Below, one piece after another: positions 6,377-34,072 of a stretch of DNA of 64,000 bases. Source of the stretch: Pseudoalteromonas rubra. GTDB lineage: Bacteria; Pseudomonadota; Gammaproteobacteria; Enterobacterales; Alteromonadaceae. Both the position numbers and the translations under genes were made by a program. The stretch is taken from positions 2,604,001 through 2,668,000 of the forward strand of contig NZ_CP013611.1 of assembly GCF_001482385.1 (NCBI RefSeq), read 5' to 3'. The notes below the pieces were generated by a model, which was not told the DNA's origin, searched no databases, and saw only the letters and a list, made by a program, of their open reading frames with translations. The stretch's first letter is position 1; each line of letters opens with the position of its first letter.

Positions 6377-7261
6377 ATGGCTATAAGCAACACTTCTCTG
6401 GGAACACTCTTTGCGCTGGCGCTGACCACCAATGCCTGTGCAGAAGCGACGGAACGCGCAACCTGGCTGTGGAAAAAAGGCGCAGATCCGCTGGGGGCAT
6501 CCGCCATGATCACCAGCCAGTCGACGCAGCATACGCTGATCGATTTGCTGCAACAGCAACATATCACGGCCGTCTATGGCTCCTACGGACAATATACACA
6601 AACGCAGTCACAGGCCGTCGCACAGTGGAATCAGACACTGGCTGCGCATGGTATTCAGTCACACTACCTGATGGCGCAAAATACCTGGGTTTTCGCGCAA
6701 AACCACAGCAAAATGCTCAACAAATTACAAACCCGCCTGATCGATTATCAGCGCAATGCTACGCCTGATGCTGGATTTACAGCACTGCATCTGGATATTG
6801 AGCCTCATGCACTGGCTGAATGGAAGCAAGGCACGCCCCAGTCTCGTCAGGCGTTGCTGTGGCAGCTCATAGATACATTCAAAGCCATCAGAGCTTTGCT
6901 AGATGATCAGGGTATGACGCAGTTAAAGCTGTACGCCGATATTCCCACCTGGTATGACAGCTCAGCTAAAATAGGCTGGGTCGACCAAGGGGCGGCCTTT
7001 TTTGCCGCACTGGAGGAGGTACTGGATGGGATTTCAATTATGGCTTACGAGCGGGATAACAGCGCCTCCATTTTGAATGCCACTACTGATGAACGGGCAC
7101 TCGCCTCCCCCACATTTTCGGTGAGACTGGGCGTAGATGTCAGCAATACCTGGCAGAGTCCTGCCCATTTATACCAGGTCATTGGTGAGCTGGAAGCCGC
7201 GCAACAGCGCGTCGATATTCACGATGCAACCGACTACTATTACTGGCTGCAAGCACACTAA
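6377..7261 (+). CDS. Secreted TIM-barrel-like protein, unknown function
   Basis: A 294-residue protein with a short signal peptide (cleavage near TNACA-EA, about residue 22) and a good ribosome site (AAAGGGAAC before ATG). The body shows alternating strand/helix segments with barrel-type motifs: ITAVYGSYG, FTALHLDIEPHAL, KLYADIPTWYD and DGISIMAYERDN. The acidic HLDIEP strand end and the late IMAYER segment recall GH18-like or related (beta/alpha)8 hydrolases. A clear DxxDxDxE chitinase signature is absent. I therefore call it a glycosidase-like exported protein and leave the substrate open. It stands alone, divergent from the GntP gene. Confidence 0.7.
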   Translation: MAISNTSLGTLFALALTTNACAEATERATWLWKKGADPLGASAMITSQSTQHTLIDLLQQQHITAVYGSYGQYTQTQSQAVAQWNQTLAAHGIQSHYLMAQNTWVFAQNHSKMLNKLQTRLIDYQRNATPDAGFTALHLDIEPHALAEWKQGTPQSRQALLWQLIDTFKAIRALLDDQGMTQLKLYADIPTWYDSSAKIGWVDQGAAFFAALEEVLDGISIMAYERDNSASILNATTDERALASPTFSVRLGVDVSNTWQSPAHLYQVIGELEAAQQRVDIHDATDYYYWLQAH

Positions 7262-7271
7262 GCCCACGCCT

Positions 7272-7460
7272 TTACTCACCCTGATGCTCGCATGTCAGTG
7301 TTACCTGCACGTGCGACGTCATAGTGTGTGCCTGCTCTTTGCAATGATAACCATACCTTTGAGTAAACCGGTGTAGCTCCTGCTCATCATCGCGCTGATC
7401 CGCATCATTCCAGTTCGCCTCATAGGTTACCGTATAAATACATCCCATACATAGATCCAT
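7272..7460 (-). CDS. Possible small Cys-rich protein next to a Fur box
   Basis: A 62-codon frame whose composition looks protein-like (IYTVTYEANWNDADQ, then RYGYHCKEQ and VQVTLTCEH). It is convergent with the preceding gene, 10 nt apart. The proposed ATG at 7460 lies just 20 bases from the first Fur box of the sRNA array (7481-7495), which faces both ways, so iron control from the same operator is possible. No strong Shine-Dalgarno is visible. Starts further upstream would run into the sRNA promoter. This may be real or chance; no family recognised. Confidence 0.35.
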   Translation of the reverse strand: MDLCMGCIYTVTYEANWNDADQRDDEQELHRFTQRYGYHCKEQAHTMTSHVQVTLTCEHQGE

Positions 7461-7480
7461 AAAGCAGCCACAAATATAAA

Positions 7481-7541
7481 TGAGAATTATTTTCAAAAGG
7501 CAATTGACAGGCACCAAGATCTAATTGATAATCAATCTCAA
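7481..7541 (+). promoter_or_regulatory. Promoter and two Fur boxes of sRNA copy 1
   Basis: Upstream Fur box TGAGAATTATTTTCA (7481-7495) and downstream box TGATAATCAATCTCA (7526-7540). Each has 2 mismatches to the 7-1-7 consensus TGATAATNATTATCA. Between and overlapping them is TTGACA (7504-7509), a 17-nt spacer and GATAAT (7527-7532). Fur bound here would cover the -35/-10 region, so transcription is expected only in iron limitation. Confidence 0.85.
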
Positions 7542-7747
7542 CAAAGTGACGTGACGGTTCATTTTGTTACTCTAATTGTTTCTCGACCCTGAAACGCGTG
7601 TCGCGCACGATAACAGCACTGGTTGTTAATGAGTTACATTGACGCCCCTTGGTGTAACTCAACAACCGCCTTATATTTTACTTGCTACATTGCTCATATC
7701 GGTGACGGTAGATATGATCCCAAAAAGCCCTCCTCAGGGCTTTTTTC
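7540..7747 (+). ncRNA. RyhB-like sRNA, copy 1
   Basis: Predicted transcript of about 208 nt, from 7 nt after the -10 box to the terminator hairpin GCCCT-CCTC-AGGGC plus T run (7722-7746). It contains a 5' hairpin AACAAA/TTTGTT and a long second hairpin (7621-7667) with loop CGCCCC at 7643-7648. The invariant core (7678-7717) begins TTACTTGCTACATTGCTC. The core shares ACATTGCTCA with the conserved pairing region of enterobacterial and Vibrio RyhB. The length fits the long (over 200 nt) Vibrio form better than the 90-nt E. coli form. This is the most diverged copy: its second stem is longer (GAGTTACA/TGTAACTC inside GGTTGTT/AACAACC). Expected role is Hfq-dependent repression of iron-using or iron-storing genes when iron is scarce (inference from family). 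Confidence 0.82.
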
Positions 7748-7882
7748 ATTTCTGAACGAAGACAGACTCCCTTTTGTATTCTCCCTGACAACTAAGCTCC
7801 AGCTACATCATCAAAAACGCCAATGTAATGCCCTGCACAACATCAACGGATACAACTGCAAGCAGTAAAGAGATAAACTAAA

Positions 7883-7942
7883 TGAGAATTATTTTCAAAA
7901 ATTGTTTGACAGGCATAAAGATCTAATTGATAATCACTCTCA
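7883..7942 (+). promoter_or_regulatory. Promoter and two Fur boxes of sRNA copy 2
   Basis: Fur box TGAGAATTATTTTCA (7883-7897, 2 mismatches) and TGATAATCACTCTCA (7928-7942, 2 mismatches), with TTGACA (7906-7911), 17 nt, GATAAT (7929-7934). Confidence 0.85.
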
Positions 7943-8159
7943 ACAAAGCGAGATTGACGGCTCACTTTGTCGAAGTACGTAATTTGTTTCTCGACCCTGA
8001 AACACGTGATGCGCACGTAAACAGCGCAGGTTGCAGGTGTTAAGTATTAACGCCCCTTAATGCAGGATGCTTGCAACCAACTTACTATTTTACTTGCTAC
8101 ATTGCTCATATCGGTGACGGTAGATATGAACATAAAAAGCCCTGCTCAGGGCTTTTTTT
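7942..8159 (+). ncRNA. RyhB-like sRNA, copy 2
   Basis: About 218 nt. 5' hairpin CAACAAAG/CTTTGTCG, second hairpin closed by GGTTGCA/TGCAACC (8029-8078) with inner stem GTATTAA/TTAATGC around loop CGCCCC (8051-8056). The 40-nt core (8090-8129) is identical to the other copies. Terminator GCCCTGCTCAGGGC plus seven T (8134-8157). The spacer before the next unit is short, so each unit appears to be transcribed and terminated on its own. Confidence 0.85.
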
Positions 8160-8204
8160 ATGCCTGAAATTTACTGCCTGATGATCCAATTACAAAAACG
8201 CAAA

Positions 8205-8264
8205 TGAGAATTAATTTCAAATAGATGTTGACACTCACAAAGATCTAACTGATAATCATTATCA
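8205..8264 (+). promoter_or_regulatory. Promoter and two Fur boxes of sRNA copy 3
   Basis: Upstream box TGAGAATTAATTTCA (8205-8219, 3 mismatches) and a perfect downstream box TGATAATCATTATCA (8250-8264). TTGACA 8228-8233, 17 nt, GATAAT 8251-8256. The -10 is embedded in the perfect Fur box. Confidence 0.88.
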
Positions 8265-8479
8265 ACAAAGCGAGGTTGACGGCTCAATTTGTTGATGTTT
8301 TAACTTGTTTTCGACCCAGAATAAGTACGTGTTGCTCACGCAAAAAAGCTTAGGTTGCAGGTGTAAAGCACTGACGCCCCTCGGTGCAGCTCACAGGCAA
8401 CCCACTATATTACTTGCTACATTGCTCATATCGGTGACGGTAGATATGAAATCGAAAAGCCCTGCTCAGGGCTTTTTTT
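8264..8479 (+). ncRNA. RyhB-like sRNA, copy 3
   Basis: About 216 nt. 5' hairpin CAACAAA/TTTGTTG, second hairpin GGTTGC/GCAACC (8353-8402) with inner stem GCACTGA/TCGGTGC and loop CGCCCC (8375-8380). Invariant core at 8410-8449, terminator 8455-8478. A reading frame crosses this unit, but it has no Shine-Dalgarno, is not kept in the sister copies and runs through the terminator, so I treat the unit as non-coding. Confidence 0.85.
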
Positions 8480-8523
8480 ATGCCTGAAATTTACGACCTG
8501 ATGATCCAACCATAAAACGCAAA

Positions 8524-8583
8524 TGAGAATTAATTTTAAATAGGTATTGACACCCGAACAAATCTAATTGATAATCATTATCA
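8524..8583 (+). promoter_or_regulatory. Promoter and two Fur boxes of sRNA copy 4
   Basis: Upstream box TGAGAATTAATTTTA (8524-8538, 4 mismatches) and a perfect downstream box TGATAATCATTATCA (8569-8583). TTGACA 8547-8552, 17 nt, GATAAT 8570-8575. Confidence 0.88.
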
Positions 8584-8799
8584 ACAAAGCGAGATTGACG
8601 GCTCACTTTGTTGTAGTACTCAGTTTGTTTCTCGACTCAGAAATACGTGTTGCTTACGCAAAAAGCTCTGGTTGCAGGTGAAAAACATTAACGCCCCTTG
8701 ATGTGGCTCACAGGCAACCAACTCACATTTTACTTGCTACATTGCTCATATCGGTGACGGTAGATATGAAATCAAAAAGCCCTGCCCCGGGCTTTTTTT
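8583..8799 (+). ncRNA. RyhB-like sRNA, copy 4
   Basis: About 217 nt. 5' hairpin CAACAAAG/CTTTGTTG (perfect 8 bp), second hairpin GGTTGC/GCAACC (8670-8719) with inner stem ACATTAA/TTGATGT and loop CGCCCC (8692-8697). Invariant core at 8730-8769, terminator GCCC-TGCCCC-GGGC plus T run (8774-8798). On the minus strand this hairpin is also followed by Ts, so it can end the convergent ylqF transcript, whose stop is 29 nt away. Confidence 0.86.
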
Positions 8800-8828
8800 A
8801 TGCCTGATTTTTACTCCAACCCCACAGA

Positions 8829-9782
8829 CTAACGGCGGTTTTTACGGGCACGCGCGCGGCGCTGGCGCTTTTCTTCTTCTTTGGCTGCTTTCTTGGCCTC
8901 CGCCGCCAGACGCAACTGAGCCACCATCTCTTCTTCCTCATCCCGCATTTGTGGTGTTTCCATGGTGATACGGCCAATGACGGCATCGCGCAGTTCGTTG
9001 ATCAGGATCTCCGACATTTTGTGCGTATCGACCTGATTACCACCGCGAATACAGCCGCGCTTACGTCCGGCCATTTCGATAAAGGTCCAGTCGCACTCAG
9101 GCAATTCATCAATTTTATAGCGCGCCTGTAACAGCTGAGGATAAGCCTGTAACAGATACTCTGCGGTATAACTGGCCACTTCCTCATAATTGATTGCAGT
9201 ATCACGAATGGCACCGGTGGCAGCCAGACGATATCCCGAGTTTTCGTTTTCTACTTTTGGCCATAACATGCCCGGCGTGTCATACAGCATAATGCCGTCT
9301 TCCAGCTTGATACGCTGTTGAGCCTTAGTGACCGCTGGCTCGTTGCCCGTTTTAGCAACTATTCGCCCGGCCAAAATGTTGATCAAGGTAGACTTGCCGA
9401 CATTGGGGATCCCCATAATCATGGCCTTTAGCTGCTTATCCTGGCCCACTTTTTGCGGTGCCAGCTTCTTACACAGCGCATTGATCCGCTGTACCTCGTT
9501 GCCCTTGTCATGGCCAAATGCGAGAGTTTTGACGCCATCTTCGCGCTCAAAGTAGTCCATCCAGGCCTGGGTCTGCTCAGGGTCGGCCAGGTCAGCCTTG
9601 TTCAGAATTTTGATGACCGGTTTGTCGCCGCGCAACTGCGCTACCATGGGGTTTTCGCTGCTGTAGGGTATACGGGCATCCAGCACTTCAATAATCACAT
9701 CCATCTGCGGCATGATCTCTTTGATCTCATTGCGCGCCTTGTTCATATGTCCCGGAAACCACTGGATACCTGTTCTGCTCAT
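8829..9782 (-). CDS. ylqF: Ribosome biogenesis GTPase YlqF/RbgA family
   Basis: A 317-residue circularly permuted GTPase. G4 NKAD (61-64) precedes G1 GIPNVGKST (125-133) and G3 DTPG (169-172), the order typical of the YlqF/RbgA family. It starts with the family motif IQWFPGHMNKA. The C-terminus is lysine/arginine rich (ends RRARARKNRR), as expected for rRNA contact. The known family member RbgA acts in late 50S assembly; that role is inferred here. The gene is monocistronic and convergent with the sRNA array. Confidence 0.92.
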   Translation of the reverse strand: MSRTGIQWFPGHMNKARNEIKEIMPQMDVIIEVLDARIPYSSENPMVAQLRGDKPVIKILNKADLADPEQTQAWMDYFEREDGVKTLAFGHDKGNEVQRINALCKKLAPQKVGQDKQLKAMIMGIPNVGKSTLINILAGRIVAKTGNEPAVTKAQQRIKLEDGIMLYDTPGMLWPKVENENSGYRLAATGAIRDTAINYEEVASYTAEYLLQAYPQLLQARYKIDELPECDWTFIEMAGRKRGCIRGGNQVDTHKMSEILINELRDAVIGRITMETPQMRDEEEEMVAQLRLAAEAKKAAKEEEKRQRRARARKNRR

Positions 9783-34057: not shown

Positions 34058-34072
34058 TGATAATTATTATCA
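34058..34072. promoter_or_regulatory. Perfect Fur box
   Basis: TGATAATTATTATCA matches the 7-1-7 consensus at all 14 defined positions. It lies just before the small membrane protein gene and contains the stop codon of the histidine kinase gene. Confidence 0.8.

Follow-up and report, generated by a model that had tools for sequence, protein, structure and literature searches.

A Pseudoalteromonas family of predicted Fur-controlled, RyhB-like small RNAs with a four-copy tandem array in Pseudoalteromonas rubra

The closest described systems to the locus studied here are RyhB (RF00057), whose gene occurs as a tandem pair in Shewanella amazonensis (described in passages of PMC2964681), and PrrF1/PrrF2 of Pseudomonas aeruginosa, two tandem copies of iron-regulated, iron-sparing small RNA (sRNA) genes that also give the longer PrrH (outlined in part of PMC4211561). 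Multiple related copies per genome are likewise described there for the sibling sRNAs Qrr (4 to 5) and csRNA (2 to 6), which serve other processes (same part of PMC4211561). Searching 290 genomes of the order with RF00057 at E ≤ 0.05 gave matches in 136, neither Pseudoalteromonas of the sample among them, and these included tandem sets of three matches 364 nt apart (G170) or 378 nt apart (G069). Two-copy ryhB arrays are present in G118, G001, G103, G152 and G111 as well as, by core string, in G213. The tandem ryhB-type arrays L140 to L147 and L152 (2 to 3 copies; families f2, f16 and f6) all lie below the Rfam cut-off, so that such arrays may be under-annotated, and a loose pattern finds a Fur-like site before 9 of the 12 units of f2 arrays. 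Tandem ryhB in other lineages, together with the published pair, makes arrays of Fur-controlled iron RNA genes a recurring arrangement. Pseudoalteromonas is a widespread marine genus. Among the matches listed in a literature search by title and abstract, none dealt with an iron-regulated sRNA in Pseudoalteromonas, and the RNA papers found for this genus concern Csr RNAs (PMC9927453 and PMC11882849, to judge by the parts consulted).

The window, by which we mean the whole 64-kb stretch of DNA that was analysed, lies on the largest contig of the 5.9-Mb genome of Pseudoalteromonas rubra. Four consecutive sRNA units occupy positions 7481 to 8799 of its plus strand (Table 1), flanked by a hypothetical gene, whose end is at 7261, and by ylqF (8829 to 9782), which converges on them from the opposite strand. 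Their starts are spaced by about 412, 320 and 320 nt, the four whole units align with a mean column identity of 87%, and a 40-nt block, TTACTTGCTACATTGCTCATATCGGTGACGGTAGATATGA, is the same in all four and is referred to below as the invariant core. Each unit has the promoter TTGACA-17-GATAAT (11 of 12 matches) at the same position; promoter-like sites in the region are near the shuffled level (5 versus 3.5), so it is their register and not their number that constitutes the evidence. In every unit, one Fur box overlaps the −10 element and a weaker one precedes the −35 element. When the window was scanned with the 7-1-7 consensus TGATAATNATTATCA at up to 2 mismatches, 7 boxes were found where 0.18 were expected, 6 of them inside the array, and none of 100 shuffles of the window equalled this count. 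The box over the −10 element is perfect (14/14) in units 3 and 4, and their upstream boxes differ from the consensus at more than 2 positions. Elsewhere in the window, a perfect lone Fur box, TGATAATTATTATCA, is found at 34058-34072, and a small membrane-protein frame starts on the minus strand just below it (by eye).

By sequence, all four units end in a GCCC..GGGC hairpin followed by T6-T7. An automatic terminator scan of the plus strand flagged unit 1 alone, probably because it counted the T run of units 2 to 4 as stem. With the transcript start placed by inference 8 nt past the −10 element and the end likewise at the T run, the predicted RNAs measure 207 to 218 nt, in agreement with the 210 to 220 nt anticipated by an earlier sequence-only reading of this DNA. 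The further elements of that reading—four tandem units, each with a Fur-box promoter, an invariant 40-nt core and its own terminator—are all seen in the sequence.

Table 1. Positions of the array features and of a candidate target gene in the window.
Feature	Position	Strand	Basis
Unit 1 upstream Fur box TGAGAATTATTTTCA	7481..7495	+	2 mismatches to 7-1-7 consensus
Unit 1 promoter TTGACA-N17-GATAAT	7504-7532; with Fur box 7504..7540	+	promoter and Fur scans
Unit 1 Fur box overlapping promoter	7526-7540	+	Fur scan
Unit 1 sRNA, predicted 207 nt	7540..7746	+	start and end inferred
Unit 1 invariant core	7678..7717	+	alignment
Unit 2 upstream Fur box	7883..7897	+	Fur scan
Unit 2 promoter	7906-7934; with Fur box 7906..7942	+	promoter and Fur scans
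Unit 2 Fur box overlapping promoter	7928-7942	+	Fur scan
Unit 2 sRNA, predicted 218 nt	7942..8159	+	start and end inferred
Unit 2 invariant core	8090..8129	+	alignment
Unit 3 upstream Fur-like box TGAGAATTAATTTCA, >2 mismatches	8205..8219	+	alignment; below scan threshold
Unit 3 promoter	8228-8256; with Fur box 8228..8264	+	promoter and Fur scans
Unit 3 perfect Fur box overlapping promoter	8250-8264	+	Fur scan
Unit 3 sRNA, predicted 216 nt	8264..8479	+	start and end inferred
Unit 3 invariant core	8410..8449	+	alignment
Unit 4 upstream Fur-like box	8524..8538	+	alignment; below scan threshold
Unit 4 promoter	8547-8575; with Fur box 8547..8583	+	promoter and Fur scans
Unit 4 perfect Fur box overlapping promoter	8569-8583	+	Fur scan
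Unit 4 sRNA, predicted 217 nt	8583..8799	+	start and end inferred
Unit 4 invariant core: 5' module TTTACTTGCTACATTGCTCA, hairpin TCATATC-GGTGACGGTA-GATATGA	8730..8769	+	alignment, pairing scan
dps-type ferritin gene, candidate target, start carries ATGAGCAA	12239..12706	+	pairing prediction

We consider it very probable that the four units of the array are sibling genes for one trans-acting sRNA under Fur repression, with the iron-sparing role of RyhB. In iron-replete cells, Fe-Fur bound to the box overlapping each −10 element would keep all copies silent, and when iron is low, each unit would fire its own promoter, with transcription ending at the unit's terminator. Presumably with the help of Hfq, the invariant core would then base-pair at the ribosome-binding site or within the first codons of mRNAs whose products use or store iron, superoxide dismutase and succinate dehydrogenase among them: its 5' module UUUACUUGCUACAUUGCUCA with sdhC, leuC and dps, and its loop module GGUGACGGUAG with codons 5 to 7 of sodB as well as with leaders of some acnA genes and of one or more leuC genes. 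Such pairing should block translation and in this way lower the demand for iron.

A covariance model of core and terminator scores the four array copies at 92 to 96 bits and retrieves a fifth, unlinked copy on another contig (C2:538160-538231, L092; 76.4 bits), after which the next match in the genome drops to 23 bits. The array adjoins ylqF. The fifth copy has Fur-like boxes of its own and is flanked by a Sel1-repeat gene and a ppc-like gene, and a one-letter seed change turns its ACATTGCTCA part into ACATTGTTCA. Strains S2676, S2599 and S2471 (L024, L031 and L045) have YlqF proteins 98-99% identical to the one encoded here. A tree was built from 18 units, those of the window together with those of five sister strains; several of its inner forks are weak. 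In this tree, units 1 and 4 have counterparts in all five sister strains and unit 2 in four of them, whereas unit 3 falls within the unit 4 set and lacks a separate counterpart, which points to it as probably the youngest copy.

Across the genus, 107 of 108 genomes carry 1 to 5 copies (one copy in 11 genomes, two in 38, three in 33, four in 22 and five in 3). The sole genome with zero detected copies (G389) is an assembly of about 180 contigs and may have a gap at the relevant place. The exact core was found in 87 stretches, every one of them from Pseudoalteromonas, and has a ylqF homolog within 3 kb in 58 of these, many of which end early; the Sel1-gene family adjoins the core in 15 of 24 loci among the matches listed. 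The family is a feature of the whole genus. Out of 154 genus units, 142 were examined (12 were left out as too near an end): a Fur 7-1-7 box with up to 3 mismatches precedes 141 of them, versus 83 of 1420 simple shuffles, and the promoter is present in 129. Strong model matches in 295 sampled genomes of the order are found in the two Pseudoalteromonas alone. Eight weak matches outside the genus (28-34 bits) were judged not to be real after a check for a core-like string only, which L097, L101 and L104 contain and the other five do not. Within the genomes searched, the predicted sRNA family is confined to Pseudoalteromonas.

Upstream of the core, the RNA is predicted to form two hairpins: a GUUUC/GAAAC stem capped by the loop CGACCC, and a long one whose loop is ACGCCCCUU. 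We aligned 14 well-aligning segments, picked from 25 diverse ones out of 73 distinct segments with fitting length, and found that 92% of cells pair and that 12 of the 27 pairs show double changes. Double-change cells number 43 versus 13.5 in shuffled alignments, a level reached by 0 of 500 shuffles, and each of five structure measures is reached by only 0 to 2 of 500. The invariance of the CGACCC loop cannot be read from this alignment because the motif belonged to the selection pattern, and unit 4 has CGACUC in its place. In the array units, CGACCC and ACGCCCCUU stand out as two further conserved C-rich loops. The core hairpin UCAUAUC/GAUAUGA hardly varies and hence contributes no covariation evidence, and the predicted fold leaves the core no more accessible than do folds in which the sequence upstream of it has been shuffled.

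The core consists of two modules, the 5' half (UUUACUUGCUACAUUGCUCA) and the hairpin loop (GGUGACGGUAG), each with its own candidate targets. When windows were moved along two units, the best pairing partner of the sodB-type gene—the putative iron superoxide dismutase gene by resemblance to E. coli SodB, the other sod type being the putative manganese one—proved to be the hairpin loop. This contact was found after the fact, the first sodB test with the core's 5' half alone having been negative, and was then checked by shuffles and codon conservation. With the loop module, the sodB-type gene reaches a mean of −20.8, and 0 of 300 shuffles are as good. All 15 genes contain CTACCGTCA, the predicted partner of UGACGGUAG in the loop; their codons 5 to 7 (CTA CCG TCA), complementary to the loop GGUGACGGUAG, are identical in 15/15, and the tenth base of the site, a C, is kept in 14. 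For 14 equal-length genes (one of the 15 differs in length and was dropped), 14 of 136 degenerate codons with an invariant amino acid are themselves invariant, as are 7 of 76 four- or six-fold codons, and codons 5, 6 and 7 are three of these seven. Viewed over the 15 genomes (L196 to L210), codons 4 to 7 (GAA CTA CCG TCA) are frozen at the nucleotide level while the rest of the gene varies freely. Codons 5 to 7 of the other sod type are variable, and its pairing with the loop shows a weak excess (10 of 300 shuffles as good). The corresponding counts are 1 of 300 for acnA, 6 of 300 for leuC and 24 to 293 of 300 for the remaining genes. The acnA value comes from 6 of 10 loci, since the start pattern missed the other four; a loop site ACCGTCAC is present in three of these six starts and a shorter one in a fourth, and the site is absent in the own genome.

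For the 5' module, the sdhC start regions of all 15 genomes are predicted to pair with UUUACUUGC..UUGCUCA at −19.4 to −25.5 kcal/mol (−24.5 kcal/mol in the own genome). Directly before the probable GUG start of sdhC, 15/15 genomes have GCAAGUAA, whose predicted complement in the sRNA is UUACUUGC, and G(A/G)GCAA precedes it in 13 of these leaders. Between species, the spacer length shifts by one nucleotide and either GAGCAA or GGGCAA is found, so that the pairing appears to be maintained despite sequence drift. Of 10 leuC genes, 8 have AGCAAGUG over their GUG start, with UAGCAAGUG in 7 and AUGUAGCAAGU in 3, the own genome being one of these 3; the two genomes without a 5'-module site have a 12-nt loop-module match (L322) or a weak site (L329). 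The dps gene was noticed as a candidate target post hoc: its copy in the window pairs with the core at −14.7 kcal/mol, which is not unusual alone, the mean over 14 distinct genus starts is −17.1 kcal/mol, and several species have GAGCAA and GCAAGUAAA-type sites, sometimes just one of them. Shuffled cores beat the family mean in 2 of 400 cases for sdhC, 2 of 400 for leuC and 0 of 400 for dps, compared with 81-330 of 400 for the controls ylqF, fusA, a hydrolase, a permease and sel1. The 5' module gave no significant result for acnB (28 of 400), bfr (115), acnA (127), the sodB type (126) or the other sod type (105). These comparisons support conserved complementarity, as predicted from sequence, at the starts of sdhC, leuC and dps.

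As a background we used 325 crudely predicted own-genome starts, drawn from the 64-kb window and from a further 400 kb sampled at regular intervals. Their longest exact core complement averages 5.7 nt, with 22 starts reaching 8 nt, 5 reaching 9 and 1 reaching 10; the own-genome values are 11 nt for leuC, 10 for the sodB type, 8 for sdhC, 7 each for acnA and acnB, and 5 for the other sod type. Fisher's test of these six genes against the 325 starts gives p = 0.0066 at ≥8 nt and p = 0.0008 at ≥10 nt (2 of 6 genes), the latter threshold having been picked afterwards. The lowest 5'-module energies among the 325 starts (−24.1, −20.6 and −19.7) belong to genes without an evident iron link, and three pattern-selected starts, also without such a link, reach −22 to −24. 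The sdhC energy alone is therefore not decisive, being extreme though not unique, and it is the conservation over 15 genomes that carries the weight.

Antisense scans of the own genome returned 57 and 13 non-self matches versus 42 and 4 control matches, and two of the 13 lie at sense-strand gene starts, those of sdhC and bfr. The bfr start of the own genome (L318; G000 C2:263124) has AGCAAGCAAGTA complementary to the core, and sites of this type occur in two other genomes (L354 and L355) without wider presence in the genus. We rejected bfr because its pairing in the own genome (−17.2) is accompanied by an ordinary genus mean over 20 starts; neither acnB nor bfr is supported as a target by these comparisons. 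A further aconitase-type family (L330 to L333) has no site (−7.6 to −12.1), and a site upstream of iscS (L263; −16.6) and one at nqrD (L277) were set aside as each is found in one genome only.

Strong Fur boxes in such repetition might also be Fur-site decoys, or the units repeats without RNA function, but this is very improbable in light of a core and RNA helix conserved well past the boxes, with compensatory changes, and a loop that complements frozen sodB codons. It would be similarly surprising if the units (also) encoded small peptides or served as leaders of a downstream gene. Every unit does contain short frames of 12-29 codons: one that ends in ...YLLHCSYR within the core and stops at a TGA in the core loop has an upstream start in three of the four window units (units 2 to 4), and near the 5' end of the same units a frame of 25-29 codons begins with TTG. 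Across the genus, however, an in-frame start for the core frame exists in just 56 of 141 units (an ATG in 10 of them), most units lack the 5' frame or have a very short version of it, and the core is identical at synonymous sites too, while a leader function is at odds with ylqF, the next gene, being convergent on the opposite strand.

More weight has to be given to the question of descent. The sequence-only reading had called these genes Fur-controlled and RyhB-like, and the Fur boxes and predicted complementarity at sdhC, sodB, leuC and dps agree with that, but the covariance search that it proposed came out negative in locus, genome and window: RF00057 has no match at E ≤ 10 in 6500-9600 and none in the genome (E. 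coli control positive), and no Rfam family passes its gathering cut-off in the whole window. Weak Rfam matches around the array (E 0.1-10) fall on terminators. The sRNA does not reach the 55 bits with the RF00057 covariance model that we used as cut-off for RyhB membership, although the conserved complement in iron genes, whose lack was to have counted against the idea alongside failure of the model, is present. Similarly, the claimed sharing of the RyhB pairing region holds for ACATTGCTCA, which is just part of the pairing surface; the conserved RyhB core ACATTGCTCACATTGCTTCC is absent, the 40-nt core is otherwise different, and the predicted sodB contact is the loop. We conclude that the RNA probably works like RyhB, though outside RF00057 as modelled. 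It could be a true RyhB, that is, a diverged descendant that kept ACATTGCTCA alone and gained the loop module, and we rate this at slightly below an even chance: ten identical nucleotides in the functional core have an arithmetic chance probability of about 31 × 12 / 4^10 (4 in 10,000), the regulator site is of the same kind, the targets sdhC and sodB overlap, and neither BLAST nor the then-current Rfam model had detected the RyhB of S. oneidensis (as stated in passages of PMC2964681). Against descent speak the confinement to one genus, the different sodB contact and the lack of RF00057 matches also in the 2 sampled Pseudoalteromonas, given that this model does detect weak RyhB from other families, at 31-45 bits; moreover, no core-like sRNA lies beside the Sel1-type gene, the neighbour of the fifth copy, in three other genomes (L107 to L109). 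That a Fur-controlled RNA arose independently in Pseudoalteromonas and came by convergence to act on the regulon of RyhB is a reading that we would accept nearly half of the time. It would account for strong matches in only the two Pseudoalteromonas of 295 order genomes and for a predicted sodB contact through a loop module not seen in any RyhB core displayed, but it leaves the shared 10-mer ACATTGCTCA to be explained, and fast sRNA turnover can erase homology.

The preferred interpretation of the array as copies of an iron-sparing sRNA can be extended, somewhat doubtfully, to a genus-specific RNA lineage with two pairing modules, one of them a hairpin loop, that would reach sodB, sdhC, leuC, dps and some acnA by sequences mostly unrelated to those of RyhB. 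The regulon would have been kept and the pairing code rewritten, with sodB codons frozen and the copies (4 + 1) perhaps serving RNA dose. This would be a possible case of the same iron regulon being reached by a different pairing code, a matter of interest for the evolution of sRNA regulons. With its defined predicted target sites and its natural series of genomes with 1 to 5 copies, the family lends itself to asking why sRNA genes are amplified.

Like RyhB (RF00057), the units have a Fur-box promoter by sequence, their own terminator, ACATTGCTCA in the core and predicted complementarity near the starts of sodB and sdhC. Unlike RyhB, they are predicted to contact sodB outside the ACATTGCTCA module via the core loop GGUGACGGUAG and in the coding sequence, they form a hairpin that covaries and has a C-rich loop, and they are found in Pseudoalteromonas only, with up to four tandem copies plus one unlinked. 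Tandem units are shared with ryhB of S. amazonensis and other genomes of the order, so the contrast between a fourfold array and a usually single RyhB gene stands as to the four copies here but must be softened given the published pair (PMC2964681, in part) and the 2-3 copies elsewhere; the f2 arrays differ in their RyhB-type core GACATTGCTCACATTGCTTCC and in the fewer copies seen. PrrF1/PrrF2 resemble the array by description; each array unit has its own terminator-like hairpin, past which PrrH-type read-through may still occur. Qrr and csRNA share with it, again by description, the presence of several related copies per genome. Four in a row extends the known tandem arrangement, and what looks new is the sRNA family, its two-module core and a different route to the classic RyhB targets.
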